Origin: Heterostelium album PN500
Lineage: Eukaryota; Evosea; Eumycetozoa; Acytosteliales; Acytosteliaceae
Assembly (NCBI RefSeq): GCF_000004825.1
Contig: NW_008805063.1
Location: forward strand, 248,857-312,856
Length of the DNA: 64,000 nt
Direction: 5' to 3'
Each line of letters starts with the position of its first letter. Position 1 is the first letter of the stretch. Under the pieces are notes generated by a model. The model was not told the DNA's origin, made no database searches, and worked only from the letters and a program-made list of their open reading frames with translations. Position numbers and translations under genes: made by a program. Below, piece after piece: positions 8,301-31,333 of the stretch.

Positions 8301-8756
8301 CCACTGCTCGAATTCAAATAGCAATTTATCGATGTGACGAACCTGTAGGATATTACGATGATGCCAGAAATCACCGAGGAACACCACATCGCTAATAGAC
8401 CTCTCCTTGGAACACTCTCTAACGTTTCTTAAAACGGTTAGACATCTGTCCAATGTCTTTGTAGAGACATGTAGATCTGTGAATATCAACTTCTTCCATT
8501 CACCACCACCACCACCATTATTATTAGAGCTAGAGTTAGTGCTAGATACATCATCACTACCTCAGTTATCGTTATCAATAGATATTAGTTTAAAAAAGTT
8601 CAAAACAATCATTGATTCATAAGTTGCTTGCTTGCTTACATACATCTTATTGAATGATGATAAACTTGATGATGCGCGTATGAAATGGTGATACCGATAA
8701 CTGTTGGCGTGAGTAAGTACAGATTTGTTTAAATTATGATAAATCAATCGATTCAT
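5382..8756 (-). CDS. Fused SbcD-SbcC (Mre11-Rad50-like) nuclease/ATPase, probable organellar targeting
   Basis: Exons 8756..8644 and 8541..5382 give 1090 residues. The intron has donor GTATGT and acceptor TATCTAG, phase 2. The N-terminus (MNRLIYHNLNKSVLTHANSY, rich in Arg, His and Ser and lacking acidic residues) resembles a mitochondrial presequence. A calcineurin-type phosphoesterase follows: TDLHV (D60, H62), GDFWHH (D95), PGNHD (130-133), FAHAE and LGHYH (H246, H248), the metal ligands of SbcD/Mre11. A Rad50/SbcC-type ABC ATPase then starts: Walker A GKMGVGKSS near 460, Q-loop YLGQGS, coiled coil with a Zn-hook CSEC near 771, signature LSGGQRR near 996, Walker B MIIDEL and an H-loop VVDHD. 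Mre11 and Rad50 are normally separate polypeptides; here both lie in one frame. The likely role is trimming or opening DNA ends or hairpins in an organelle (inferred). Confidence 0.9.
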
Positions 8757-14118: not shown

Positions 14119-15192
14119 TTAGTTGTATCCAACAAACTTTCCATCTGATTTCTGTACAATAAAAGAAGTTGATATTTTCAAAAACTTTTCTTCATTGATT
14201 AAAATACCAGTGGTTTCATTATACAAGTTCTTGATGGTATCGACTGGAATTGAGAGAGTCTCGGCAATGGTCTTCTTGTAGTTTTCAATGGTCTGTGGCT
14301 TTGGTGTTTTGAAGATTTGGTAGAGAATTGGGTCTTTGTGAGTTAAAACCTTAGAGTAGTTGGTAAGTTCTTCTTCACTGACTGCACTGTCTTGTGGTAA
14401 TTCATATTCGGTGACGATTCCCATTTCCTTGAGGAGTGCAACTGTTGATGGATCGTGTGAATCTAAATCGACCATCAAACTCTTCTTGGCAATCTCCAAA
14501 AGTGTCTTGCTGGTTCCTTTGGCTCCGGATTTGTTGGAATAGAGTGTTTTTGAACCGGTTCCTTTCAACTGATCCCACTTGGCAACTTGGTAGGTTTCAA
14601 ATTCACCAGTCTCCAAATTGAGTTTGATATTCTTGATGATAATGATCTTTGCATTCAATGATAGTGTTTCGACTGGCTTTCCACCGGTTCCACCACTGAC
14701 CGATACATTGGTGATCTGGACATGATGCATCTCATACTCGATGATTGGTAAGACACGATTCGATGACTTTAAAATGAAACGTAGGATGATGTGTGGAATG
14801 ATTTCACCACGCATTGACATGTAGTTGAATGCTGGCGAACGGTCACAAGTGAATTTGGTGCATGTCAATTCACCAACATGTGGTTTACCTCTCTTTCCAG
14901 CCTCAGAGGAGACATTGTGTGAATAACTCATGACGTCAATCCATGGTGCAACAAACTCTTTGAATCTCTTTGAAATCAGTTTCTCCATTGGATCTGTCTC
15001 TTGTTTTGCTCCTCTTCTTCCAAAGTGGTTGTTGTCATCATCGGATCCGTCACCATTCAAATCCTCGCCCTCTTCAGCAGGTGCGACCAATCCCATCAAT
15101 GCATCCTTCTGGTTTTCAATGGTTGGAATTTGGTAGTCTTCAGCATTAACATTGATATCGATTGGAACCCACAAAGCAATTGAATCTTTCAT
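14119..15192 (-). CDS. Hcp-like (type VI secretion tube-protein family) protein, copy 1
   Basis: Intronless, 357 residues. An acidic Asp/Asn loop lies at about 38-56. Residues about 82-196 match the Hcp fold family of bacterial type VI secretion: IDVMSYSHNV, then HVGELTCTKFTCDRSPAF, MRGEIIPH, EYEMHHVQITNVSVSGG and ETLSLNAKIIIIKNI, in the order and spacing of Hcp. Bacterial Hcp is about 160 residues and forms hexameric rings. Residues 197-357 are an extra domain that I do not recognise. There is no signal peptide or membrane segment. Copies 2 and 3 lie at 15938..17014 and 29752..30834. The 5' flank shares a conserved block with theirs. Transfer from bacteria is inferred; codon use and flanking DNA look native. 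Confidence 0.85.
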   Translation of the reverse strand: MKDSIALWVPIDINVNAEDYQIPTIENQKDALMGLVAPAEEGEDLNGDGSDDDNNHFGRRGAKQETDPMEKLISKRFKEFVAPWIDVMSYSHNVSSEAGKRGKPHVGELTCTKFTCDRSPAFNYMSMRGEIIPHIILRFILKSSNRVLPIIEYEMHHVQITNVSVSGGTGGKPVETLSLNAKIIIIKNIKLNLETGEFETYQVAKWDQLKGTGSKTLYSNKSGAKGTSKTLLEIAKKSLMVDLDSHDPSTVALLKEMGIVTEYELPQDSAVSEEELTNYSKVLTHKDPILYQIFKTPKPQTIENYKKTIAETLSIPVDTIKNLYNETTGILINEEKFLKISTSFIVQKSDGKFVGYN

Positions 15193-15937
15193 TTTTGTTG
15201 TTGTTGTTATTTAGTTTAAAAGATAAAAATTTTTACAAATTATATATAGATAAATTATTAAAGATAAGATAGATTATTTTAAATGATATTAAATATTGTT
15301 TTTTGACAAACCCGAGTTAAATACTTAAATTGATATCAAAAAAAAACCTAATATCGAGATATCTAGGTGATGATGAAACTGAAAAAAATCAGAAAATTTG
15401 AGCTTTGGCAAAAGATTTTTTTCGAAATTTTCTGTTTTTTAAATGAATTCCTAAATAAGAAATATCTTTATTTATATATTTATTCTTAATATTATGAATA
15501 TCTATGTAAATTTCATATATTTTTCTATTTATCTTTATAATAATTGAAAAAAATAAAAAGAAAAAATAAATAAAAATTTTCAATACTTGATTTCTTTTTT
15601 TTTTTTTTTTTTTTTAATACATTATTTCTTTTATTTTTTTCTTTTTTTTGAACTTGTATATCAAATGGAATTAAATTTGAGGGATATAGAACCTAAAAAC
15701 TTTTAATAAGGTATTATAAGGTTTAGCCTTTAAAGTTTGAAATTAATGACTAATTAAACCTTATTAAGAAAGATGAGAAGATATTTTCAATGCTGAATCT
15801 AAATTCATCTTCGGAACCAGTACAAATCCAAATTTATCTTTAAATTTTTTATTATCCAGAAAATTTTAGTATTTTAAAATTGTTATTTAATTTACAAAAA
15901 AAAAATGGATTTATAATATTTATTAAACATATTAAAT
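15193..15937. other. Intergenic region between Hcp-like copies 1 and 2
   Basis: The right side is the 3' flank of copy 2. The left 300 bases are the 5' flank of copy 1, with the conserved block listed separately. A poly(T) run of more than 20 bases lies near 15596-15616. No gene is seen. Confidence 0.6.
15379..15466 (-). promoter_or_regulatory. Conserved upstream block of Hcp-like copy 1
   Basis: A near-palindrome CTGAAAAAAATCAG at 15379-15392 and CCTAAATAAGAAATATC at 15450-15466 (+ strand) lie 187 and 258 bases upstream of the ATG. The same words occur at matching distances upstream of copies 2 and 3. They are candidate transcription-factor sites; function is inferred from conservation only. 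Confidence 0.55.
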
Positions 15938-17014
15938 TTAATTGTATCCAATGAACTTTCCATCTGATTTCTGTACAATAAAAACGGTTGTTGGTTTCAA
16001 GAACTTTTCATCATTGAGTAAAATACCAGTAATTCCACTATACAAGTTTTTGATGGTATCGACTGGAATTGAGAGAGTCTCGGCAATGGTCTTCTTGTAG
16101 TTTTCAATGGTTTGTGGCTTTGGTACATTGAAAATTTGGTAGAGAATTGGGTCTTTGTGAGTTAAAACTTTACAGTAGTTGGAAAGATCATCTTCACTGA
16201 CTTCACTGTCTTGTGGTAATTCATATTCGGTGACGATTCCCATTTCCTTGAGGAGTGCAACTGTTGATGGATCGTGTGAATCTAAATCGACCATCAAACT
16301 CTTCTTGGCAATCTCCAAAAGTGTCTTGCTGGTTCCTTTGGCACCAGATTTGTTGGAATAGAGTGTCTTTGAACCGGTTCCTTTCAATTGATCCCACTTG
16401 GCAACTTGGTAGGTTTCAAATTCACCGGTTTCCAAATTCAATCTAATATTCTTGATGATCATAATCTTTGCATTCAATGACATGGTTTCGACTGGCTTTC
16501 CACCGGCTCCACCACTGATCGATACATTGGTGATCTGAACATGATGCATCTCATACTCGATGATTGGTAAGACACGATTCGATGTCTTTCCAATGGCACG
16601 GAAGACAACGTGTGGAATGATTTCACCACGCATTGTCATATAGTTGAAGGTTGGTGAACGGTCACAAGTGAATTTGGTGCATGTCAATTCACCAACGTGT
16701 GGATCACCTCTCTTTCCAGCCTGAGAGGCGACATTGTGTGAAAAACTCATGATTTCAATCCATGGTGCAACAAACTCTTTGAATCTTCTTGAGATGAGTT
16801 TCTCCATTGGATCTGCCTCTTGTTTTGCTCCTCTTCTTCCATAGTAGTTGTCATCGTCGGACTCGTCATTGTTATTGGCCAAATCCTCGTCATCCTCGGC
16901 TGGTGCAACCAATCCCATCAATGCATCCTTTTGATTCTCGATGGTTGGAATTTGGTAGTCGTCAGCGTTGACATTGGTATCGATTGGGATCCAGACGGCA
17001 ATTGATTCTTTCAT
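15938..17014 (-). CDS. Hcp-like (type VI secretion tube-protein family) protein, copy 2
   Basis: Intronless, 358 residues, tandem to copy 1 on the same strand. It has the same plan: MKESIAVWIPID at the N-terminus, an acidic Asp/Asn insert (about 38-57), the Hcp-like core (IEIMSFSHNV, HVGELTCTKFTCDRSP, MRGEIIPHVVFRAI, HHVQITNVSISGG, ETMSLNAKIMIIKNI), and the conserved C-terminal extension ending QKSDGKFIGYN. It is much closer to copy 3 than to copy 1 in the first 200 residues. A roughly 139-nt DNA block encoding part of the extension (16204-16342) appears identical to copy 1 (14385-14523), which suggests conversion or very strong constraint. Confidence 0.85.
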   Translation of the reverse strand: MKESIAVWIPIDTNVNADDYQIPTIENQKDALMGLVAPAEDDEDLANNNDESDDDNYYGRRGAKQEADPMEKLISRRFKEFVAPWIEIMSFSHNVASQAGKRGDPHVGELTCTKFTCDRSPTFNYMTMRGEIIPHVVFRAIGKTSNRVLPIIEYEMHHVQITNVSISGGAGGKPVETMSLNAKIMIIKNIRLNLETGEFETYQVAKWDQLKGTGSKTLYSNKSGAKGTSKTLLEIAKKSLMVDLDSHDPSTVALLKEMGIVTEYELPQDSEVSEDDLSNYCKVLTHKDPILYQIFNVPKPQTIENYKKTIAETLSIPVDTIKNLYSGITGILLNDEKFLKPTTVFIVQKSDGKFIGYN

Positions 17015-17753
17015 TTTGTTTTTTTGGTATTATTATTATTTACAAATAAATTATTAAAAGATAAGATTGTTTTTTGTTTGATTGATTTTTGTTTTAATTT
17101 TAAATGATATTAAATTTTGTCAGACACTTTTAAACACTTTGTCCAAAACCAAAAAATAATATCAAGATAACATCGAAAAAAAATGATGATGCAACTGAAA
17201 AAAATCAGAAAAATTCTTTAACTCAAAAAACAGATTTTTTCGAAATTTTCTGTTTTTTAAATGAATTCCTAAATAAGAAATATCTTTATTTATATATATT
17301 TATTCTTAATATTATGAATATTTATTTAAATTTCATATATTTTTCTATTATCCTTTTTAAAAATTGAAAAAAAATTTATATTACTTGTCATTTATTTTAT
17401 TATGATTATATTTCATTTTTTAAACAAATAAATAAAAATAAAGAAAAATTAATTTTAAGAAATGTAATTGGGTATATGATTTGTTCTTTTCCAAAATATT
17501 GTTCATGGAATTGAACTGGAAAATATATCAAGAACTTATTTATATAAGTTGTGATGAGAAAAAAACTTATGTTTTTTAAAAAATAAAATAAATTAATCTG
17601 TAACTTGAAAATTTAAGTGGTTTAAAATGAAATTACAATTTACAAAAACACACAATGAATCATTCTTTTTTTTTTATTTTATTTTTGGAATAGATATTGA
17701 TAGTTAGATATAATTGATATTATAGTAATCTAGTAAATAAAAATAGAATAATA
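17015..17753. other. Divergent intergenic region
   Basis: This separates the start of Hcp-like copy 2 (-) from the start of the membrane-protein gene (+). The left part carries the conserved block. The right part (about 17380-17750) is AT-rich without recognisable features. Confidence 0.6.
17195..17284 (-). promoter_or_regulatory. Conserved upstream block of Hcp-like copy 2
   Basis: CTGAAAAAAATCAG at 17195-17208 and CCTAAATAAGAAATATC at 17268-17284 lie 181 and 254 bases upstream of the ATG. Similarity to the copy 1 flank extends on to about 17345 (TTATTCTTAATATTATGAAT). Confidence 0.55.
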
Positions 17754-19297
17754 ATGGATTCTAAAACATTTGTTGTCTATGATCATGTATCATATAACTT
17801 GTTCTATCGATCGGAGAAAGCAAAGGATCAAGAAAAGCTCTACCCATATTATGTGTTAGATGAGCATCTAGATGTGAAAAGATTGAGAGCTCATTTGAAT
17901 CAATTTGAATTGTAAGTGCACTAAATTTACAAATAATAAAATAATTAGTTATCTTTAAATTGTTATTAACAAATGTATTGTTTTTTGTTTTTTAATATTC
18001 ACAAGTGAATCAATTGTATTGTGTGTGATGAATGGTGATGATATCGATGATGGTGCAGCATTATCATTCGATGGTGATATCAATTTCAACAATAACAATA
18101 ACAACATTATTAATGCCAACAACAACAACAACAACAAAAACAAGTTAAACAACACTTTCAATGGTGGCAATAAAGAGATTACTTTCAAAGATGGCAAATA
18201 CAACAATGTTATAAAGACACTCTTGGACTATCTAAGAGGTGGTATTCAAAGAAAATATATAAACAACAACAACAAAAACAATAATTCAAATCATTATCTT
18301 TACAATACAACACCAAGAAGAATAAGTAAGTATATTTATTACAATACAATCGTATGAGTATCATCATAAATCGAAAACAAACTAATTATATATATATTTA
18401 AATTATATAATAGTTACACCAAAGTTGGGTATTATTCTTATTACGAATGAAGATTTGGATGGCTTTGGAATGACAAACTACATAGAGTCAAACATTGAAG
18501 TGAATATGCCATTCCTCTATAATATTAAGAGATTGTGTGGTCTTGACATCGTATCGAGTACCTCCACTGCGAGAGAGTTGAACAACCGTATCGACAATAT
18601 GCTGAGAGAGAATGCATTCCATTGGAACTACGACATTGTGATGCCACGTCGTGTAGGCGGTCACATAACCAAAGACAACTTCTATCCAGTGGTTTCCAAC
18701 AACAGTAGCAGAAGCAGCAGCAGCGGTGGTAACAACAACTCACTTGCAATCACAATGATGCTGTTCCTTATCAAACTCCTATTGGCAACGACCGTTCTAT
18801 TCTTCTTTTTGGTGGTACTTAACGATTTCTGTGCAAAGTCGGCAGAGCTATCATATATCAAGCAAGGACACAGAATTGATCCATTACAGTTCGAAACCCT
18901 CAACAATAATTATGACCTATGTAAAGAAGACGTGAATGTCCTACACCAGAGAGTAGTGAGTTCAGATGAAATAATAAGTAAAGGAATTACACTTCATTCG
19001 CCTGAGGGTCACACCTTTAAATATATTGCACCAAATCACACCAACTTTGATTTTAAAATTCTCAAATCACTAAACACACAACAGCCTTCATCTGATAACA
19101 ACAACAACAACAATCACAATAATAATAATGAAGAAGTTCAATATTTCACAAATTACCTACTACCGTTTTACAAACAATATATACAGTCCCACTATCAAGA
19201 TTACATCCATCCTATTTACACCAATTATATATCCACCTTATTAGACAACAAACAGCAACAAGAAGAAGACAAAACTAGTACTACTATTCAACATTAA
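17754..19297 (+). CDS. Predicted single-pass membrane protein with longin-like N-terminus, unknown function
   Basis: Exons 17754..17911, 18006..18325 and 18414..19297 give 453 residues. Donors are GTAAGT, acceptors CACAAG and AATAG, and phases match. The N-terminus (MDSKTFVVYDHVSYNLFYRS, then LYPYYVLDEHLDVKRL) alternates hydrophobic strands with a helix in a pattern resembling the first longin domain of CCZ1/HPS4-type proteins; this is a weak impression. Asn-rich loops interrupt the region. A second strand-like part (KLGIILITNEDLDGFG) follows, then one strong membrane segment (ITMMLFLIKLLLATTVLFFF), and a tail of about 150 residues rich in Asn, Tyr and Gln. There is no signal peptide, so it is probably membrane-anchored with a cytosolic N-terminal domain (inferred). 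Confidence 0.75.
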
Positions 19298-19552
19298 TCT
19301 ATCTATTCTATTACACCATCCAATAACATTGTATATTAAATAAATAACAATTATCATTATCGAAAATTCATGAAGTGACTTTACCGATTTGTTAACTATG
19401 ATTGTTGTCGAATAAAAAATAAATAAATTTGAAAATTTTAAAAAACTGTTTCTTTTCTTAACTGTTTGAACAAGCTTTTTATTAATATTGTTTGACCGTC
19501 AAAGAGTGTATATATATATGATACATTAGTTTCATTAGAGTTATAGAAACAA

Positions 19553-21239
19553 ATGGATATAGATATACAGACTAAAGAATTTTGTAAATTATCATTAAAG
19601 AACACAAATCAATTATATAATAATGTACATGCAACTATAGCACATAGTAATAGTAGTGCAACAGATGAATTAGATTCGAAACGTATAAAACTATTTTCAA
19701 AGATAAACGATGAATATATACATGTTAAAGATATACTGCCGCCTAAATCAACAACTACAACTTCAACTACAACAAATGTACAATCTAAAGATATTTCAAT
19801 GAAAGATACAACTATAGATAATATAATAAGTTCTCAACCAAATATACAAGAGTTTGTATTATTACAATTATAATATACTTTAGTTTATTATCATTTTTAC
19901 TTACTTACTTACAACAATATCTATCTTATAAAACAACAATATTAGTGAGAAGAGAAGAAAGGTTGGTGATAGTAATGCAAATATGAGTATTGTTGTATCG
20001 AATAATAATAATGGTGTGAAGAAGATGAATATGACAGAACAACAGAAAGCATTGGTGAATATAGGTTCGACAGGTCCTGCACTTAGCTATACTAAACCGA
20101 TGTGGCATCCACCTTGGAAGTTGATGAGAGTCGTTGCCGGACACACTGGTTGGGTGCGTACGATCTCTGTCGATGTGAACAATGAGTTTTTCGTGACTGG
20201 TGCCACCGATAACACCATCAAAGTCTGGGATATGGCATCGGGTGAACTCAAGGTGACGCTGGTCTATCATATTGCACCGGTGCGTGCCGTTCAGCTGTCG
20301 GCGCGCCATCCCTATATGTTCTCGGCCGGCGAGGACAACAAGGTGATCTGCTGGGATCTCGAAGCGAATCGACCGATCCGACACTATCACGGTCACAGGA
20401 ACGGTGTCTACTCGCTGGCGCTACACCCGTCACTCGACATCATCTTCACCGGTGGCAAAGACTCGACCGTCCGTGTCTGGGACATGCGTACCAAAGCCGA
20501 GATCTACACGCTCTCCGGCCACAAAGGAACGGTCGGATCGCTCATCTCGCAATCGCCAGACCCCCAAGTAATCTCTGGTTCCATGGACAACACCATTCGT
20601 CTCTGGGATCTAAAGACCGGTCAATCGGCAGTGACTCTCACCAACCACAAGAAATCAGTAAGAGGTTTGGTAATGCATGAGAAAGAGTATGTAACTTGGT
20701 TATTCATATGATAATTATAGTAAATCTAAACTAAACAAACTTATTATTATCAACAATTGGCAGATTCTCATTTGCATCTGGTAGTGCAGATAATATTAAA
20801 CAATGGAAATTACCGGAGGGACAGTTTATTAAGAATCTATCGGGACATAATGCAATCATTAATTGTCTGGCGTTGAATCAAGATAATGTGTTGGTTTCTG
20901 GTGGTGACAATGGTAGTATGCAATTCTGGGATTGGAAGACAGGTTATTGCTTCCAGAAATCACAGACTATAGCTCAACCCGGTTCACTCGATAGTGAAGC
21001 CGGTATTTTCGCAATGGCATTCGATCGTACTGGAACTCGTTTAATTACATGTGAAGCTGATAAATCCATTAAAGTTTATAAAGAAGATGAAGAAGCCGTA
21101 TGTTATAATTTATATCTATCATATTTTTTGAATAATAATAATACTAATATATTTTATTTTCTTTACTTTTTAGAATGAATCAACTCATCCAATTAGTAAT
21201 GAATGGAGACCAACAGCACAGAATATAAAGAGATTTTAA
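19553..21239 (+). CDS. plrg1: PLRG1/PRL1 (Prp46) WD40 protein of the Prp19-associated spliceosome complex
   Basis: Four exons (19553..19851, 19946..20686, 20764..21097, 21174..21239) give 479 residues. The first intron uses a less usual donor, GTTTGT, but it is the only one that joins in phase to DEKRRKVG. The core begins [20 protein letters not shown], the hallmark linker and first WD repeat of PLRG1. About seven WD40 repeats follow: [68 protein letters not shown] and [10 protein letters not shown]. It ends [17 protein letters not shown], like the family. It is a nuclear NTC/Prp19-complex component needed for spliceosome activation. The N-terminus (about 100 residues) is divergent and Thr/Ser-rich. 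Confidence 0.94.
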
Positions 21240-21448
21240 GAACATAGATCTAATAACGATAACGATAATAACAATAACAATTGAAACAATAACAGGTGAA
21301 ATATAATAAACTATATCAACTTTTATTATATGATGAAATGTAAGATTGGAATAGGTTCATCATTTTATTTATTTATAAATATATGATGAAAGAAGTTGGA
21401 ATATAAATAATAATATAATATAGCAGTAATAATGATTGGTTTGTTGTA

Positions 21449-21756
21449 TTACCAATGAGTTCTTCTACAGATCCAAGCATGGAAACGACGTGACCAGTAA
21501 CATTCATATCTACGACCGAATCTGTTGGCATCATCAGTTCCGGCGACATCGGCAAGCTGTGAACCAGTTTGTGATGATTTGGCACCTCCACCGGACATTG
21601 TTACACTGTGACTAATGGATTCAACCATTGAAGCACCATTACCAATACTTGTTAAGTTTTCTACAGATTATTATTTATTTTTTCAGATTATTAATAATTA
21701 TTTAAATTAATGATATTTTATTTGTTTATTTCTTTTTACATACCAATAAGTGTCAT
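21449..21756 (-). CDS. Small hssA/2C-like protein (tentative)
   Basis: Exons 21756..21744 (MTLI plus one base) and 21660..21449 give 74 residues, with donor GTATGT and acceptor CTGTAG. A tiny first exon encoding MTL(I), followed by a Ser/Gly-rich start (LTSIGNG, then HSVTMSGGGAKSSQTGS), recalls the dictyostelid hssA/2C/7E small-protein family. That likeness is from memory of the family. The C-terminal third (FGRRYECYWSRRFHAWIC) is less family-like. The overlapping frame ending at 21373 has a more protein-like sequence there (VVDMNVTGHVVSMLGSVEEL), so a frameshift near 21560-21590 or an unrecognised intron is possible. Confidence 0.5.
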
Positions 21757-22334
21757 TTTTATTTATCTTTATTCTTTTATACTAAGAGATAATATTTTGA
21801 ATGAATACATATTTTAAATTGACAACTATTTATACTGAGCAATATGTCAATCAATATTTAATTTTGTAATCCCTATTATAGTTATATTCTCCAGAAGAAA
21901 TCATCAATTTGAATATTCTTTTTTTTATTTCTTTACTTGTTTAATAAACCATGTATAAATTTATCAGTGTCATTGTTGAATGATCGAATATATAAGTCAT
22001 TTCTATCAAATATTCATAAAAAAGAATCAACCATTTTTAAGAGCAAATGTATTTATATATGATAGAATAATTAATGGGAATAGTACAACAATCTTTTTAT
22101 GTTTCTTTCTCATAACAACAAAAATTAAATAAGTATCTTTTATTTGAAAATTAATATTAATATATATATGTTGGATTATTATAGAAATATATATCTCGTG
22201 AAGATAAGAATAAAAATTGTAATATTAGGTGTTTAGAATGAAATTAAAGAAAATAATCTAATGATTGTTAGGTTGTGATTTTGTTGATATTATTATTTGG
22301 TGCAGTGCTTTCTGTGCTGCTTTGTTTTGTTTTG
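21757..22334. other. Intergenic region
   Basis: AT-rich DNA lies between the small hssA-like gene and the 3' end of the sterol reductase (both -). No gene, RNA or repeat is recognised. Confidence 0.5.
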
Positions 22335-23858
22335 TTAATAAATATATGGGATGAAACGATATTGAACACGTTTGCAATACTCGACCCAATCTTGTTTGTA
22401 TTTTTCTGCACATTTATGTTCGTCACGAAGACAACGGTGATAGAGCATACCAGAGAAAAAGAATGCGTAGAAATGTGGGATAAAGTGGTGGTAACCGCAT
22501 GACATTGTCCAGGTGAGTGCCATCATCATGTCGGCTGTGTAATGGAGCTTTCTGGCGAGACTGTACCATCCGTCGATGAGGAGTGGCGAACCGGCTTTGG
22601 TAATCATGAACTTTGGATTGCTGAGGACTGCCCATGGCAACTGTGGGAATGCCCAGGGACGTGGCTTCCAAATGCCGGCCAAACGCATACGGAAAGTGTT
22701 CTTCTGTGAGTTTACGGTATCGAAAATGTAGTAGCCAACGAGGAGCAGTACCAACATGAATCCGTTGACGAGGGGCGATCCTTGCAACATCTCGGGTGGG
22801 TGAGTAAGGATGTAGACTGGCTGGGTGCAGTAGACAAGTGGAACACCTGCCAGATTCCACCAGCAGAGCATCCATCCCCATTTCTCGTGGTAGATGTCCC
22901 AGGTCGGTGGAATACACTGCTCACCCTTCATGATGGCGTTGCAGTAGATTCCGTGAGCCAACAGGATGAATCCCATTGAGAATGTGACGTATCCGAGTTG
23001 CTCATACTGTTTGACGGCGCAGGAAAGAGTGATCAAGAAAAGCATGATCCACGAGACACGCACCTCTGCAAACATCTTGATGTCCAACTTTCCGATGCGT
23101 GGATTCAACCATGCTCCCATGAAGAAATCGTAGATAACATTGCCAGAGTTGTCTTGCTCGGCTTCACCTGACACGATGGCATACAAGTAGACGGCAATGG
23201 CAATGAGATCCGACGAGAGAACGGCGACAGTAGTAATTGGTCCTAGATTGTCGTAGATGTCGGTCAGCGGGAAGACTCCGGTGATGTGCAAAACAAACAT
23301 CAGCGGGATGGTTACGTACCAGGTGCAGAGCGCATTGCAGTGGTAGGAAAGATGCTTGCCATTCAGGGTTGGCAGTGGTAGACCGTCGATTCCGATGCCC
23401 GGGAGCGTCACGTAGAAGATGGCATTTGCAATCTGGAAAATCCAGTAGACTTGGATGGCGTAGGCAGTTGGGAACGCCTTTTCATAGAGAATCGAAAACA
23501 GCTTGTATCCCCACTCCTGGAGACCGGTGAGCGACCAACTCTCTGGCAGAATCAAAGCTCCACCATTCACATTGAGACAGGCGAAAAAGTAGAAAACAAT
23601 GAAATGTGAGAATGTCATAATGAGCAAACAACCAAGGGGACCGCCAAATTCATTCGGAACTCTCTTTACTATCTTGCTTTTCCAATCGATATTCTTGAAT
23701 TTCTCCTTGTTGGCCGCATCATTCTGAGATTTATAGGTTTCTATATCTGTAATAATGGGTGTATATTTTTCAGGGGTTGTTGAAGTTGTTGTCGATGAAA
23801 CCGAAGTTGTTGTTGAACTAACGTTTCCACGTTGTTTTACATCCGGAGAAGGTACCAT
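22335..23858 (-). CDS. ERG4/ERG24-family sterol reductase (delta-14 or delta-7 type)
   Basis: Intronless, 507 residues. It is a multi-pass ER membrane enzyme that uses NADPH to reduce a sterol double bond late in sterol synthesis. After a Ser/Thr-rich N-terminus of about 35 residues there are about nine to ten hydrophobic segments. The C-terminal catalytic signatures are clear: NLAGVPLVYCTQPVYIL, LLIDGWYSLARKLHYTAD and the family ending CGYHHFIPHFYAFFFSGML, followed by HRCLRDEHKC..KYKQDW and RFIPYIY. These place it in the LBR/TM7SF2/DHCR7/ERG24 family. The sequence alone does not settle which double bond is reduced. The likely pathway is synthesis of the amoeba membrane sterol. Confidence 0.92.
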   Translation of the reverse strand: MVPSPDVKQRGNVSSTTTSVSSTTTSTTPEKYTPIITDIETYKSQNDAANKEKFKNIDWKSKIVKRVPNEFGGPLGCLLIMTFSHFIVFYFFACLNVNGGALILPESWSLTGLQEWGYKLFSILYEKAFPTAYAIQVYWIFQIANAIFYVTLPGIGIDGLPLPTLNGKHLSYHCNALCTWYVTIPLMFVLHITGVFPLTDIYDNLGPITTVAVLSSDLIAIAVYLYAIVSGEAEQDNSGNVIYDFFMGAWLNPRIGKLDIKMFAEVRVSWIMLFLITLSCAVKQYEQLGYVTFSMGFILLAHGIYCNAIMKGEQCIPPTWDIYHEKWGWMLCWWNLAGVPLVYCTQPVYILTHPPEMLQGSPLVNGFMLVLLLVGYYIFDTVNSQKNTFRMRLAGIWKPRPWAFPQLPWAVLSNPKFMITKAGSPLLIDGWYSLARKLHYTADMMMALTWTMSCGYHHFIPHFYAFFFSGMLYHRCLRDEHKCAEKYKQDWVEYCKRVQYRFIPYIY

Positions 23859-24733
23859 TGTTCTACAATTTTATTGTTTTTATATTTCTATTTTTTTTTT
23901 TTTCCTTTCTTCTTTTTCTTTCCTTCCTTTCTTTTAAATAAAAAAAAAAAATACAAATAATTTGTTTATTGAAATAATTTAAGTTAAAATTACTCAAACA
24001 AAATTAAATATTAAGAAAAAAAAAAAGGATAGAATAGAATTGAATTGAATTGAATAGAGGAGAGATATAAATTAAAGTTATATATTTAAAAAAATACGAA
24101 AGGGGCAATGTAAGGGTAAACAAAGTGTGAGTGGGTGAAGTGCTGAAATTTTATTCTTTAAAATAAAATATTTTAAACATCTTAGAAATTGTTTAGATTT
24201 AGGGTAGAGAAGAACTCAGTGATAGGGGGTATAGACACGATGATCGTTGGCTAAGGTCACACAAAAAAAGAACTTCAAATTACCTACCTGGTGGTATTTG
24301 TTTTGTGCTTTTTTTTTTTTCATTTCAGTTTATCTTCTAAACAACTTTAGTTTTTTTGTGTGTGTAGAGTGGTGAATTTTTTGAAAGAATTCTTTGTTGA
24401 TGATCTTAAAACAATTTGTCTTTTATTCGAACCATGATCAGGCGCGAGTTTCAATCAGATTGATTCGACAACCACAAAAAAAAACACAAAAAACATGAAA
24501 AAACAAAAAAATTCACCCACTATTCGAACTTTTTTTGGGACACTTATTAATACCCCCAAACCAAAAACAATAAACAAATAAAAGCGGGCTTTTATTTTCT
24601 CTATTCGTGCAATGAAGTGTTGTTGTTATAGATTATTTAGTTTCAAACAGCACACATATACATTGAGATTTTATTTTTGTTTTTATTTTTTGTTTATTAA
24701 TTCACGTGAATAATTATTAATTCAATGTTATTT
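23859..24733. other. Intergenic region
   Basis: This is the 5' flank of the sterol reductase. A pyrimidine-rich tract lies at 23890-23936, and poly(A)/poly(T) runs lie near 24018, 24310, 24480 and 24528. A moderately GC-rich patch at 24225-24300 and 24430-24475 stands out, but I can assign nothing to it. Confidence 0.5.
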
Positions 24734-24880
24734 AAATGATATTGATAATAAGAGTAAAGAATGGGTTGATAAAGTTGAAAAAAGATCAACTCTATCAAAT
24801 ATCGATTGATAAAAAGTTAAAGGTGACCAAGTCTTTGAATAAAGATAGCTTGGCCAGTGCAATTATCAATTATATGGTAT
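24734..24880 (+). pseudogene. 5' fragment of the LRR/F-box-like gene family
   Basis: The DNA from GATAATAAGAGTAAAG to about 24876 closely matches the start of the genes at 25868 and 27934 (KKDQLYQISIDKKLKV, SLNKDSL), but the native ATG and first codons are missing. A one-base insertion near 24768 shifts the frame relative to the intact copies, and similarity stops after the SAP-like motif. It is a truncated, non-functional copy. Confidence 0.8.
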
Positions 24881-24972
24881 TGTATTCAAACACATTTGAT
24901 CAAATGCTGCAAAATCTATTGGAGTGGCAAGTGATTCTCTGATGTTGTATTGGTACAATATTTTTGCTATTT

Positions 24973-25598
24973 CTAATTGATTGCAATATATTGAACAATC
25001 AAACAATGTACCATAACTCTCATGTGGGCAGATCTTATTGGCTCATTGATATCGAGTAGGTATTGAACAACATCGAGATGTCCGCCAGTAACCGCACCGT
25101 AGTACATATTACTAAACTCTCTATCTTCTGATCTATGTTCTGCCAACCACTCAATCATATCAATTCGACCCATCTTGGCTGCATTATCTTTTTACCTCAT
25201 TATAGTGAAATCATTCTTTTCTACCCTCTGTTTACCACAATTCTCCAGTTTATCAGCCAAGTACTTGACAATTTCAATGTCTCCAGGTGCCACTAATGCA
25301 TTATAGTAATTCAAACTCTTCTTTGAAGTTCTTCGCAAATGTATTTGACTTTCTCCAAACTTCCATACTCCGCTGCATAATTTAAGATAATACTGAAATC
25401 TATTGATTTGTAGAAACTCGATCTTGATATCGGTTTGATCATATCGAGCAGATATTTCAATGTCTCGAAGCTTCCAGCTTTGATTGCTGCATCAAACGTT
25501 TGATACAAATAAAGGCAGATAGAATGATCGGTATAATACAGTTTAAGTTCATTTAAATAATAGTTAAAAAGGTAGTTTCTTTTCAATAATTTTTTCAT
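24973..25598 (-). pseudogene. Broken ankyrin-repeat protein gene
   Basis: Reading leftward from 25598, the first frame gives MKKLLKRNYLFNYYL and ankyrin-like units (TFDAAIKAGSFETLKYLLDM; ILNYAAEYGSLEKVKYICEE) and ends in a stop at 25311. Similarity continues in another frame with NYYNALVAPGDIEIVKYLAD, hits an in-frame TAA near 25197, then resumes with MGRIDMIEWLAEHRS and YYGAVTGGHLDVVQYLLDI until 24973. One frameshift and one nonsense codon within about 650 bases mark it as a pseudogene of the large dictyostelid ankyrin family. Confidence 0.8.
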
Positions 25599-25867
25599 AT
25601 TTGCTTACCCCAAATAAAAAATGAGTTATTAAAGGAAAGGTATTTATTTTTAGTGTTGGCTGACAAACAAACATACTTCAGTACAATAAAAAAATAGTAA
25701 ATAAATTTTAAGTAATAATTTGTTTTTTAAAATAGAGTAAAAACTTTTCCAAGAAATAGAACATCAAACAAATGTATTGAATGAATGAATTCATTGGTCA
25801 AACTTTTATTATTTAATGTTATTGAATTGTATTTTTTATTTTTATATATTATAATAAATAAATAATA

Positions 25868-27290
25868 ATGTCGAATTTATTATTAGATGTTGATATTAGG
25901 AGTAAAGAAGAGTTGTTAAAGTTGAGAAAAGATCAACTCTATCAAATATCGATTGATAAAAAGTTAAAGGTGAATAAATCTTTGAATAAAGATAGCTTGG
26001 TCAATGCAATCATCAAACATAGAGATGATCAGATCAGATTACAAAAGACATTGTTCGACGACAATCCTGCAATCAGATTCCATCGTGGTCATGTCGACTA
26101 TCGTTTACCTTTCTTGATCATTTCAAAGATATTTCAATATTATTGGATGTTGTGTACCAATCACACGAGTCCATTCTTCTCATATCGTGATGCTTTGACA
26201 ATCACTCTTGTCAACAAACAATTATATGGTATTGTTACCACTTTATTCAATAGTATTTTTATAAAAAAGAAGAATATTTCAAAAGCAATACAATTAAATA
26301 TGTAAGTAAATCTTCCAAGATATATCTTTTTTTCAAAGATGTTTATTTTAATTAATATTAAGTTTCAGAGATCCTCCAATTATAGACAATGAAATGAATA
26401 GATTAACAAGGACATGGTGTCCGATCAAGCACATAATTAAATTACATATTGACTACAAACTGTTAGAATCATTGGTAAACAGTACAGATATCCTTCACAC
26501 CAATCTACTCATATCCGTTGAAAAGTTACATATTACTTTGGATAAAGCAACAATCATATACAATTGTGATAGAAACATCAATTATATGATCTTCAAGAAA
26601 GTAGCAAACATAATGACGAATCTCAAGACACTCGTTTGTGATTCTATTAGGATTAGACAATCGCATATCAATGCAATCGCAACAATCAAGTCACTCAAAA
26701 AATTAGATTTAACAGACACGTTAAGACATCGTCTCGGAAATATAGAGGTGTTAGCACTCATGAAATTTCCATTAATGGACCAATTCAAATTACCAAGATT
26801 CGATCCAGTAAACATTCCAGTTTCCTTCAGAGATGGTGTAAAATCATTGTTCAATGTCTCTTTCTATAAACCAGTATCACCAAAACAACTTTTAGAACTC
26901 CCAAACTTGAAGAAGATCTCTTTTTACCAAACTAGACCCGACATTTTCAAATATTTCAAAGAATCATCTTTTAATGTCACTTATTTATGCTTCCCTTTGA
27001 ATGGAAATATCGATCATTGGCTTCCAATCATTGAGAAACTCATCAGTATCGAAACACTCGAAGTCAACACTCAATCGTTGGGTTCAAAGGGTCTTCTTAG
27101 TTTGTGTCGACAATTCAAAAACAGCATCTCACCAAACTATTCTCGATTCTATATAAAAGCATTCGATCACTTTGATATTTACAAATGTAATTTAGAAATA
27201 GAATTGCATTATTCTCATCAGAAATTGTATCCTAGAATTACAAGTGGTACAAACAACCTTAGAAAAATATATTTTGTTAAACAAATATAA
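25868..27290 (+). CDS. F-box/LRR-like family protein with N-terminal SAP-like motif, copy A
   Basis: Exons 25868..26301 and 26369..27290 (donor GTAAGT, acceptor TTTCAG, phase 2) give 451 residues. Residues about 12-50 (SKEELLKLRKDQLYQISIDK, then SLNKDSLVNAIIKH) look like a SAP/helix-extended-helix motif. The next part (YRLPFLIISKIFQYYW, then YRDALTITLVNKQLYGIVTT) has the pattern of an F-box. The rest has irregular Leu-rich repeats (MTNLKTLVC, IKSLKKLDLTD, LLELPNLKKISF). If it is an F-box/LRR protein it would recruit substrates to an SCF ubiquitin ligase; that is inferred. Copy B at 27934 is close, with the 3' 350 bases nearly identical. Confidence 0.78.
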
Positions 27291-27350
27291 ATTGAAATAA
27301 TATAATATAGAAATAAAGCACACTTGTTTTAAATGAGAACAAAATTTAAT

Positions 27351-27620
27351 TTAGTTAGAATTTGATAGTTCTTTGAGATCGTTTTTCTTTTTGATAAATC
27401 TGAATCTAGGTTTTATTGATCGTTGATATTGGTTTAGATTGTTCAATGGGAAGTTGATCTTTTCCAAAATGATTTCAATCATTTCAACATCGTCCATTTT
27501 AATATAATATCTACTATGTTTTCTTGGTTTCGTCAATTGATTGGCAAACTCTGGATATTTAGACAAGAGATATTGGATTTTCTCCATATGTCCTGTTCTA
27601 TGGCAAATAAGTTAACTTAT
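27351..27620 (-). pseudogene. Ankyrin-repeat gene fragment
   Basis: The frame gives an ankyrin-like start (RTGHMEKIQYLLSKYPE) and a second weak unit (MDDVEMIEIILEKINFP) ending at 27351. Upstream there is no start or further repeat. It lies opposite to and between LRR copies A and B, the same arrangement as the broken ankyrin gene upstream of copy A. It is a remnant of a duplicated gene pair. Confidence 0.6.
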
Positions 27621-27933
27621 TTTCATTATTTGTATGAACTGTTAAAACAAACAAACTAAATTTCTTTGGATTCTCTCAAATAAAAAATTTCCTTAAGATA
27701 TTGTTTTAATTTTTGTTTCATTTAATTTCTGCAAAGCTTGATAGTTTTTACAATAAAAAAAAACTACAGGCAATTATTTTTATTGTTTGTTTTCGTTTCG
27801 CAAAATATCCCAAAAGTAAAAACTTTCCAAGAAATAGAGCATCAAACAATGAATTGCATAAATGAATCTAATTTTTTTTATTATTATCAATTCAATGTTA
27901 TTGAATTGTATTATTTATATTAATTAAATAATA

Positions 27934-29335
27934 ATGTCGAATTTATTATTAGATGTTGATAATAAGAGTAAAGAAGAGTTATTAAAGTTGAGAAAAGATC
28001 AACTCTATCAAATATCGATTGATAAAAAGTTAAAGGTGAATAAATCTTTGAATAAAGATAGCTTGGTCAATGCAATTATCAAACATAGAGATGATCAGAT
28101 CAGATTACAAAATACATTGTTTGATGACAATCCTGCAATAAGATTCCATCGTGGTCATGTCGACTATCGTTTACCTTTCTTGATCATTTCAAAGATATTT
28201 CAATATTATTGGATGTTGTGTACCAATCACACGAGTCCATTCTTCTCATATCGTGATGCTTTGACAATCACTCTTGTCAACAAACAATTATATGGTATTG
28301 TTACCACTTTATTCAATAGTGTTTTTATAAAACAGATGAATATAAATTCGTAAGTATTGATGTCATAAACACAAAAAACAGAATAAACTTTTATTAATTA
28401 TTATACCCACTTTTAGTGGATACTTAAATTTGGAACCATTGATAAATAATGAATTACTTAGATTAACAAGAACATGGTGTCCGATCAAACAGATAACAAA
28501 ACTACATATTCACAATACAATGTTTGAACAATTTGTTAACAGTACAGATATCCTTCTCAACAATCTACTTACAACCATTGAGAAGTTACATATTTATGTG
28601 AATAAATCATCTTATAGAGACATCAATTATCTTACCTTCAAGAGTGTAGCAAGCAAAATGCCGAATCTCAGGACACTCGTTTGTAACAACGTCAATATTA
28701 GATACTCACTCATCAATGCAATCGCCACAATCAAGTCACTCAGGAAATTAGATTTGACACACACCTACAAAGTTCGTCTTGGATCTTTAGAGGAACTGGT
28801 ACTCACCAAGATGCCATTACTAGACCAAATCAAATTACCAATATGCGATCCTGTAAATATTCCAAATTCCTTCAGAGACAGTGTTATATCATTGTTCAAT
28901 GTCTCTTTCTATAAACCAGTATCACCAAAACAACTTTTAGAACTCCCAAACTTGAAGAAGATCTCTTTTCTCAAACTTAGACCCAACATTTTCAAATATT
29001 TCAAAGAATCATCTTTTAATGTCACTTATTTATGCTTCCCTTTGAATGGAAATATCGATCATTGGCTTCCAATCATTGAGAAACTCATCAGTATCGAAAC
29101 ACTCGAAGTCAACACTCAATCGTTGGGTTCGAAGGGTCTTTCTAGTTTATGTCGAAAATTCAAAAACAGCATCTCACCAAATTATTCTCGATTCATCATT
29201 CAAACATACGATCACTATGACAACGAGAAAAATAATTTAAAAATAGGATTACATTATTCTCATCAGAAATTGTATCCTAGAATTACAAGTGATTCAACAA
29301 ACCTTAGAAAAATATATTTTGTTAAAAAAATATAA
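27934..29335 (+). CDS. F-box/LRR-like family protein with N-terminal SAP-like motif, copy B
   Basis: Exons 27934..28349 and 28417..29335 (donor GTAAGT, acceptor TTTTAG, phase 2) give 444 residues. The N-terminal 130 residues are almost the same as copy A, the middle (about 145-270) diverges, and the segment from FNVSFYKPVSPKQLLELPNL to the end is again nearly identical, down to the DNA. The 5' flank is also shared (TTTCCAAGAAATAGA and following bases, 25746 versus 27824). This patchwork suggests recent duplication with later gene conversion or diversifying change in the middle repeats. Confidence 0.78.
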
Positions 29336-29751
29336 ATATTCTCTATTAACTCAATATTTTTTTTATAACTTATAAGTAGAAATAAAGATACCATTCATTT
29401 TGATATTAAGTAAAATATTATTGTTTTTTTCAATTTATTTTTTGATAATCCTTTACATTAATATTTATTAAATCTAAAACCATTTCCAACATTGGAAGTA
29501 TAAGAATCTTATGTTTCAAATGTTCATCTTTCTATTATCTACAAGCTTTTTTCTATTTCTATCTTTATTGTAAAAAGGAGATGGTTTTGTGCACGTGCAG
29601 AATGAAATAAATAATTATCTACATATAAATTAAATTTTTTTTTAAAAAATCTAATAATTTTAAATACTTTATTTTATATTTTTAAGTAAGTTGATTATAT
29701 AACAAATTAAAATATTAATAATTATAATTATTAATATTGATTCTATTAAAT
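29336..29751. other. Convergent intergenic region
   Basis: AT-rich DNA lies between the 3' ends of LRR copy B (+) and Hcp-like copy 3 (-). Nothing is recognised. Confidence 0.5.
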
Positions 29752-30834
29752 TTAGTTGTATCCAACAAACTTTCCATCTGATTTCTGTACAATAAAGGAA
29801 GTTACTGGTTTCAAAAACTTTTCTTCGTTGATTAAAATACCAGTACCTGCACTATACAAATTTTTGATGGTATCGACTGGAATTGAGAGAGTCTCGGCAA
29901 TGGTCTTCTTGTAGTTTTCAATGGTTTGTGGTTTTGGTGTTTTGAAGATTTGATAGAGTTCTGGTTCTTTGTGAGATAAAACTTTAGAGATGAGTTGGAA
30001 AGATCGATCTTCGTACTCGACTGCACTGTCTTGTGGTAATTCATATTCGGTGACGATTCCCATTTCCTTGAGGAGTGCAACTGTTGATGGATCGTGTGAA
30101 TCCAAATCGACCATCAAACTCTTCTTGGCAATCTCCAAAAGTGTCTTGCTGGTTCCTTTGGCACCAGATTTGTTGGAATAGAGTGTCTTTGAACCGGTTC
30201 CTTTCAATTGATCCCACTTGGCAACTTGGTAGGTTTCAAATTCACCGGTTTCCAAATTCAATCTAATATTCTTGATGATCATAATCTTTGCATTCAATGA
30301 CATGGTTTCGACTGGCTTTCCACCTGAACCACCACTGATCGATACATTGGTGATCTGAACATGATGCATCTCATACTCGATGATTGGTAAGACACGATTC
30401 GATGTCTTTCCAATGGCACGGAAGACAACGTGTGGAATGATTTCACCACGCATTGTCATATAGTTGAAAGTTGGTGAACGGTCACAAGTGAATTTGGTGC
30501 ATGTCAATTCACCAACGTGTGGAGCACCTCTCTTTCCAGCCTCAGAGGCGACATTGTGTGAAAAACTCATAATGTCAATCCATGGTGCAACAAACTCTTT
30601 GAATCTTCTTGAGATGAGTTTCTCCATTGGATCTACCTCTTGTTTTGCTCCTCTTCTTCCATAGTAGTTGTCATCGTCGGACTCGTCATTGTTATTGGCC
30701 AAATCCTCGTCATCCTCGGCTGGTGCAACCAATCCCATCAATGCATCCTTTTGATTCTCGATGGTTGGAATTTGATAGTCGTCAGCGTTGACATTGGTAT
30801 CGATTGGGATCCAGACGGCAATTGATTCTTTCAT
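29752..30834 (-). CDS. Hcp-like (type VI secretion tube-protein family) protein, copy 3
   Basis: Intronless, 360 residues. The first 255 residues are nearly the same as copy 2, including the acidic insert and the Hcp-like core (IDIMSFSHNV, MRGEIIPHVVFRAI, HHVQITNVSISGGSGG, ETMSLNAKIMIIKNI). A short stretch around residues 268-290 (EYEDRSFQLISKVLSHKEPE) differs from both other copies, and the last 50 residues are again conserved, ending GKFVGYN. It lies about 13 kb from copies 1 and 2 but keeps their orientation and promoter block, so the duplicated unit included at least 320 bases of upstream DNA. Confidence 0.85.
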   Translation of the reverse strand: MKESIAVWIPIDTNVNADDYQIPTIENQKDALMGLVAPAEDDEDLANNNDESDDDNYYGRRGAKQEVDPMEKLISRRFKEFVAPWIDIMSFSHNVASEAGKRGAPHVGELTCTKFTCDRSPTFNYMTMRGEIIPHVVFRAIGKTSNRVLPIIEYEMHHVQITNVSISGGSGGKPVETMSLNAKIMIIKNIRLNLETGEFETYQVAKWDQLKGTGSKTLYSNKSGAKGTSKTLLEIAKKSLMVDLDSHDPSTVALLKEMGIVTEYELPQDSAVEYEDRSFQLISKVLSHKEPELYQIFKTPKPQTIENYKKTIAETLSIPVDTIKNLYSAGTGILINEEKFLKPVTSFIVQKSDGKFVGYN

Positions 30835-31021
30835 TTTGTTTTGTTGTTATTATTATTTACAAATAAATTATTAAAAGATAAGATTGTTTGTTTGATTGAT
30901 TGATTTTTGTTTTAATTTTAAATAGATATTAAATTTTGTTTTTTAAAAAACACCCGTTTTAAATACTTAATCTATAACCAAAATTTAAAAATCAAGATAA
31001 TGTTGAAAAAAGATGATGCAA

Positions 31022-31107
31022 CTGAAAAAAATCAGAAAAATTCGGGTTTTGTAAAAGATTTTTTACAAATTTTCTGTTTTTGCATTAATTCCTAAATAAG
31101 AAATATC
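31022..31107 (-). promoter_or_regulatory. Conserved upstream block of Hcp-like copy 3
   Basis: CTGAAAAAAATCAG at 31022-31035 and CCTAAATAAGAAATATC at 31091-31107 lie 188 and 257 bases upstream of the ATG, matching copies 1 and 2. Confidence 0.55.
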
Positions 31108-31333
31108 TTTTTTAATACGTGTCTTTCATTTCTTAGTTTTTTTTTGTTTATTCATTAAAATATGAATATTCCTTGTATTTCCTATTTATTGATTAGAAGA
31201 AAAAAAAAAAAAAAAAAGAAAAAGAAAAAAGAATTTAACAATTTTTTAAATTAAAAGGTTATGATTAATGATATACATCTTTTAATTATAATTTAATTAA
31301 TTATTCGTAGTAGACAATACTATTGTTAAGTTA

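Follow-up and report, generated by a model that had tools for sequence, protein, structure and literature searches.

What are genes for Hcp, the tube protein of the bacterial type VI secretion system (T6SS), doing in an amoeba chromosome? The question is raised by a stretch of 64,000 nucleotides of Heterostelium album PN500 (assembly GCF_000004825.1, contig NW_008805063.1, positions 248,857 to 312,856 of the forward strand), hereafter the window, in which an initial annotation made from the letters alone had placed three intronless genes with an Hcp-family core. The three open reading frames (ORFs) are indeed there, each open from ATG to stop, and lie on the minus strand, which the annotation had left unspecified; the peptides it quoted, TKFTCDRSP and MRGEIIPH among them, are present as well. 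It is very likely that these genes, numbered 1 to 3 here, belong to an amoeba family that derives from a bacterial gene for an Hcp of the Hcp3 type, carries an acidic insert, a linker and a C-terminal ubiquitin-like (Ubl) domain, has been duplicated and is maintained under purifying selection.

Genes 1, 2 and 3 match the Pfam family PF05638 (T6SS_HCP) from residue 84 or 85 to residue 181 with E-values of 4.1e-10, 8.6e-10 and 1.7e-9 and with 38.5-40.5 bits, where the curated cut-off is 23.5; gene 3 also matches PDB chain 9qpe_A, the Hcp3 of Pseudomonas aeruginosa, over residues 86-208 (E 2e-18). The Hcp-family core proposed for the three genes is thereby confirmed, and the outcome named in advance as speaking against it, profile searches giving no Hcp hit, did not occur. 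A search of genes 1-3 against NCBIfam assigned no family. The genes are members of the Hcp family by sequence, and their products are predicted to adopt the Hcp beta-barrel fold and to form a hexamer. The genes and their parts are arranged as follows.

14119..15192, minus strand: gene 1 (P0001), Hcp-Ubl fusion of 357 amino acids (ORF from ATG to stop, Pfam match)
14569..14943, minus strand: gene 1, Hcp core, residues 84-208 (PF05638 at 84-181; reach to the final WD from alignment)
14356..14568, minus strand: gene 1, conserved linker (alignment)
14122..14355, minus strand: gene 1, predicted ubiquitin-like end, residues 280-357 (profile comparisons)
15938..17014, minus strand: gene 2 (P0002), Hcp-Ubl fusion of 358 amino acids (ORF from ATG to stop, Pfam match)
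16388..16762, minus strand: gene 2, Hcp core, residues 85-209 (PF05638 at 85-181; alignment)
16175..16387, minus strand: gene 2, conserved linker (alignment)
15941..16174, minus strand: gene 2, predicted ubiquitin-like end, residues 281-358 (profile comparisons)
29752..30834, minus strand: gene 3 (P0003), Hcp-Ubl fusion of 360 amino acids (ORF from ATG to stop, Pfam and PDB matches)
30754..30834, minus strand: gene 3, putative first Hcp strand and loop, residues 1-27 (alignment alone)
30583..30753, minus strand: gene 3, variable acidic insert, residues 28-84 (unmatched in 163 bacterial loci by a profile of residues 1-84)
30208..30582, minus strand: gene 3, Hcp core, residues 85-209 (PF05638; 9qpe match at 86-208)
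29989..30207, minus strand: gene 3, conserved linker, its first part (residues 210-270) the most constrained (nonsynonymous divergence, dN, 0.04 against synonymous divergence, dS, 0.62 in comparison with the paralog L004)
29755..29988, minus strand: gene 3, predicted ubiquitin-like end, residues 283-360 (profile comparisons)
15193..15553, minus strand: 5' flank of gene 1, partly common to the flanks of gene 2 (17015-17373) and gene 3 (30835-31120) (repeat families D6, D8, D11 and D12, alignment)

By alignment, the N-terminus of the proteins corresponds to the first Hcp strand; after it come the acidic insert, which is variable and about 55 residues long in the window copies, the remainder of Hcp up to the final WD, the linker and the last 78 residues. 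The N-terminus probably also belongs to the Hcp part, its 'SIAVWIPID' aligning with the bacterial 'DAIILDLG'. The region beyond the core had been described as a conserved extension of about 160 residues of unknown fold; fusion and conservation are borne out, but the last 78 or so residues are ubiquitin-like by profile, with a beta-grasp fold predicted. A profile of this part from seven paralogs found 46 PDB sequences at E-values up to 10. Ubiquitin, engineered ubiquitin variants (including what are presumably affilins) or the Ubl domains of TBCE and BAG6 account for 41, and the other five are a CAP repeat, three eL13 and a tektin. Comparison by hhalign with 12 ubiquitin and Ubl sequences of the same genome gave 92% at a score of 36.5, in register with ubiquitin 15-47, while 60 column shuffles reached at most 15.4 and 2.2%, the reversed profile 13.7, and other segments of the protein (residues 1-84, 85-209 and 200-282) at most 8.7 and 0.1%. 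The window copies with L004 gave 84% by themselves, and the diverged paralogs L005-L007 77%. A C-terminal Gly-Gly is present in none of the seven family members, and the domain would therefore be an integral Ubl rather than a conjugated tag.

Weak Pfam matches of single proteins to Sdh5 (0.19) and ubiquitin (0.15) were not trusted by themselves, and a doublecortin-like end was dropped, none being found among the 46 PDB matches. Elsewhere in the genome, loci L137, L138, L141 and L150 contain ubiquitin-like stretches with a common 'SVxKLV..RL' or similar core and without a Gly-Gly end; L137 and L138 score slightly higher than ubiquitin itself against the end of the Hcp family, and the four are perhaps an expanded amoeba Ubl set.

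The small expanded family proposed from the window extends beyond it. A search of the amoeba's own genome with gene 3 returned nine places in eight loci, the three window genes included. Locus L004, on the same contig 0.33 Mb away, is an intact intronless copy with 77% identity; L005, L006 and L007 are 50%, 38% and 29% identical to gene 3, and L008 (C25:467721-467951) is a C-terminal remnant of the Hcp-Ubl family whose frame is broken before the end. The Pfam Hcp model recovered six of the eight loci, all six places above the cut-off, and nothing besides at E-values up to 1, and a search of the genome with the L005 protein detected no further family locus. The description as intronless holds for genes 1-3 and L004 but not for the family, as L005, L006 and L007 have predicted introns. 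A phase-0 GT..AG intron is predicted 8 residues (L005) and 11 residues (L007) ahead of the W in WIDI, and it is plausibly shared and old; the predicted intron of L006 lies later, between VG and DF. Because the diverged paralogs have predicted introns, the lack of introns in the other copies cannot be read as evidence that they arrived recently. Parts of the 5' flank are common to the window copies, which were therefore duplicated at the DNA level. Between genes 2 and 3, DNA identity is 97.9-99.5% in the parts that cover codons 1-270 and 87.6% in the Ubl part, which suggests gene conversion between them, as if stopping near codon 270.

Where the core came from is indicated by its bacterial relatives; 117 were detected when a collection of genomes from bacteria and archaea was scanned. 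The best 80 of these 117 belong to Pseudomonas, Stutzerimonas, Burkholderiales (Paraburkholderia, Caballeronia, Janthinobacterium), Iodobacter, Andreprevotia, Citrobacter and an unclassified gammaproteobacterium. Each of these 80 stops 138-147 residues beyond the point at which the match begins. PF05638 is present in 28 of 143 genomes of one class and in 93 of 398 of the phylum Pseudomonadota, in which the L005 protein matched nine of the 398 genomes, solely within residues 74-235 of its 369. With a profile based on Hcp3, 147 of 163 bacterial loci gave an Hcp ORF, the longest tail being 64 amino acids; in the remaining 16, the long frames L159 and L192 among them, the extension was examined by profile only. 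Profiles of residues 1-84 and 210-360 matched no frame in the 163 loci (1.09 Mb) at E 0.001, the best value for the extension being 0.055. A bacterial Hcp already bearing the amoeba extension was thus not found among the 80 relatives, in the scan with the L005 protein or with the extension profile on the 163 loci. No relative that would point to a viral source turned up in two scans of viral contigs, and in plasmids (two records) and phages (one record) the match was confined to residues 86-181.

For the tree, six of the 147 rows shorter than 100 amino acids were dropped (leaving 141) and near-copies were removed at 85% identity, giving 47 bacterial rows, all from Pseudomonadota, and seven amoeba rows, the sole eukaryote. 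The amoeba rows formed one clade (100/100) adjoining nine Hcp3-type rows in an analysis whose bootstrap had not settled. Without seven long or incomplete rows (L006, L007 and five bacterial), the five remaining amoeba rows and the nine Hcp3-type rows fell on one side of a branch with support of 99/96, in agreement with the bacterial origin suggested by the initial annotation. The simplest reading would be one acquisition from the Hcp3-type lineage of Pseudomonadota.

After their arrival the genes were conserved as proteins. In Nei-Gojobori counts, gene 1 differs from L004 with dN 0.143 and dS 0.839, and from L005 with dN 0.486 and dS 1.687, the latter near saturation; where measurable, dN/dS ranges from 0.17 to 0.49. 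The most constrained stretch is codons 210-270 (dN 0.04 against dS 0.87 between gene 1 and L004). Codon scores, from a table of seven neighbouring ORFs, are -0.97 to -1.01 for genes 1-3, against -1.04 to -1.17 for the seven neighbours left out in turn and -1.27 to -1.39 for three bacterial hcp genes. The window is part of a 2.0 Mb contig in a genome of 32.9 Mb and 39 contigs. In a Pfam scan of ten neighbouring ORFs the matches were to eukaryotic types, namely a protein kinase, a WD40 protein, ERG4/ERG24, a diacylglycerol-kinase-like protein, a helicase and a GTPase, and three of the ten had no Pfam match. The family is a set of bacterial-origin genes in a eukaryote, grouping with bacterial sequences, host-like in codon use and constrained. 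That the genes have been repurposed, as had been proposed, agrees with dN below dS and with the T6SS parts searched for: VipB, VipA and Phage_GPD (PF05943, PF05591 and PF05954) were not matched anywhere in the amoeba genome at E 0.001, other T6SS parts not having been searched.

What the proteins might do is suggested by two features of the Hcp part. According to work on P. aeruginosa Hcp3 (9QPE; PMC13323088), the effector Tce1 sits in the lumen of the ring with repeated contacts to S29, S31, E56, T60, G121 and K123, and the G121W mutant loses Tce1 binding. Genes 1-3 and L005 have all six residues at 37-40% identity to Hcp3, whereas none of the 39 bacterial rows below 60% identity keeps more than four; the hypergeometric P for retention of all six is 0.002-0.004 relative to all aligned positions. 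This retention in four paralogs is suggestive, not strong, as a sign of a preserved lumen surface. Strands 2 and 3 are connected by a loop that is 17-19 residues long in 36 of the 39 bacterial rows, the three other lengths (2, 5 and 7) seeming to be due to segments that start within the loop. In the seven amoeba proteins its length is 10, 10, 10, 9, 23, 3 and 18 residues, outside the bacterial range in six. Two mutations in the loop of Burkholderia pseudomallei Hcp1 block the pairing of hexamers (PMC4650826). The amoeba loop would correspond to this stacking loop, and its altered length speaks against the formation of tubes.

Several observations count against this picture. The dN/dS ratio between genes 2 and 3 is 0.49 (dN 0.043, dS 0.088). 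The top PDB values of the Ubl profile are sums over polyubiquitin repeats, single domains having E-values of 0.008 and above, weak individually, and the similarity aligns across the middle third of the domain alone. L004, L006 and L007 retain four, two and one of the Tce1-contact residues, and a lumen role is consequently not family-wide. Five of the 39 bacterial rows are without two of the six positions and could not have exceeded four; moreover, P is just 0.02-0.03 relative to positions invariant in the nine Hcp3-type rows, and genes 1-3 are near-copies. The loop of L007 has the bacterial length, and the authors of the Hcp1 study leave open how important the loop is in other Hcps (PMC4650826).

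A tentative reading, to which we give clearly less than even weight, is that the proteins form a cytosolic Hcp ring that holds cargo without forming tubes, with the Ubl as a handle for the ubiquitin system, perhaps as an effector trap. The amoeba Hcp-Ubl protein would act in the cytosol, its Hcp domain forming a ring or joining Hcp rings, with a lumen that retains the effector-binding surface. Unable to stack into tubes, the ring would hold Hcp-dependent cargo (effectors or Hcp subunits injected via the T6SS of soil bacteria) that is not passed on. The Ubl without Gly-Gly would dock the protein to the proteasome or another ubiquitin-binding partner, and the cargo would thereby be neutralised or degraded. 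In its specific form, in which non-stacking Hcp-Ubl rings would enclose injected effectors or Hcp and pass them to the ubiquitin-proteasome system, the amoeba would be defended by its attacker's own tube protein, which we regard as rather unlikely on present evidence. Self-protection against T6SS-bearing bacteria, an option raised by the initial annotation, gains indirect support as a possible role.

About as likely as the effector trap is a domesticated scaffold or chaperone unrelated to bacterial attack, in which an Hcp ring would serve host proteins (e.g. in development or encystation) and the Ubl would dock a host partner; the data do not separate the two, and a scaffold is likewise possible rather than probable. 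It would suit the facts that the most constrained part of the protein is the amoeba-only linker, that the lumen residues are lost in diverged paralogs, and that the codon use of the genes is no poorer a fit to the host than that of the seven neighbouring ORFs, as might be expected of steadily expressed genes. Against it stand the six effector-contact residues, all present in four paralogs at 37-40% identity and not obviously needed for a host-only role. The same altered loop could instead reflect interference through mixed rings, whereby the amoeba Hcp would enter and block bacterial Hcp rings with the Ubl as a bulky cap and not a degradation handle. Heterohexamers of Hcp are reported in other bacteria (PMC13323088), but identity to Hcp3 is just 37-40% and Hcp rings form inside the bacterium, where contact would presumably require injected or released Hcp, and we consider this improbable.

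Homology to Hcp might also be taken to mean that the amoeba builds a T6SS-like tube or weapon against bacteria. The missing matches to VipB, VipA and Phage_GPD and a loop of unusual length in all but one of the seven paralogs make this very improbable, and the tube that had been among the options for these proteins is disfavoured by the changed loop. Contamination or decaying bacterial DNA would account for the bacterial origin of the core and for the frame-broken remnant L008. It was ruled out as an explanation of the family by the 2.0 Mb contig with eukaryotic neighbours, an extension unmatched in 163 bacterial loci, host-like codon use, paralogs with predicted introns and dN below dS, and retains next to no probability.

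Two further features of the window lie outside this family. At 5382-8489 on the minus strand, an ORF of 1035 amino acids combines a calcineurin-like phosphoesterase (residues 1-192) with a Rad50/SbcC-like ATPase (AAA_23, residues 376-609), and a nuclease and its ATPase partner as a single chain looks unusual. At 25832-29335 on the plus strand, adjoining gene 3, a two-ORF unit occurs in two tandem near-copies (94% and 79% over repeat stretches), with a third fragment at 24765-24874; the two ORFs of the first copy have no Pfam match.

Amoebae eat T6SS-armed soil bacteria and are attacked by them, and to our knowledge the way in which eukaryotes handle injected T6SS material is largely open. A eukaryotic Hcp-Ubl protein that keeps the effector-contact surface in four copies with an altered loop would, if the proposed reading is true, be a piece of a weapon taken over from bacteria and a candidate trap that can be tested. 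Symbiotic Paraburkholderia of Dictyostelium discoideum carry several T6SS (PMC9601139), one of which affects transmission among amoebae (PMC11882306), and Heterostelium pallidum PN500 is amenable to targeted editing (PMC13046832). Among the papers that the literature searches listed, none deals with a eukaryotic Hcp, although the domain may already be flagged in InterPro or UniProt, and neither Hcp nor DUF796 appears among the 16 candidate transfers of D. discoideum (PMC3188802). What is new here is that a eukaryote has a protein which by its sequence is an Hcp, whose partner domain is new and whose stacking loop is altered.

Eukaryotes are known to have captured T6SS-related genes, as in the dae genes of ticks, which derive from T6SS amidase effectors; these encode secreted enzymes, whereas the amoeba Hcp is a structural tube protein. 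The amoeba proteins resemble the integral Ubl of TBCE and BAG6 in their profile matches (E 0.055 and 0.71) and in having no Gly-Gly end, with different partner domains and weak similarity. The TirBCD genes of Dictyostelium offer a parallel (PMC13142454), in that a bacterial immunity-type domain moved into a dictyostelid, gained introns and was duplicated; their TIR domain, however, is unrelated to Hcp. Hcp proteins with a C-terminal toxin domain are specialised T6SS effectors (PMC13323088 and PMC3482391) and share with the amoeba proteins an Hcp core with a C-terminal extension, but the amoeba extension is ubiquitin-like by profile and the gene is eukaryotic. In the core itself, the closest likeness is to Hcp3 of the P. 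aeruginosa H3-T6SS (9QPE; PMC13323088) and to the Hcp3-type proteins of Pseudomonas, Paraburkholderia, Iodobacter, Citrobacter and others (L009-L088). Those bacterial proteins are of about 165 amino acids without insert or extension, whereas the amoeba proteins differ from them in loop length and occur in a genome with no sheath-family match.

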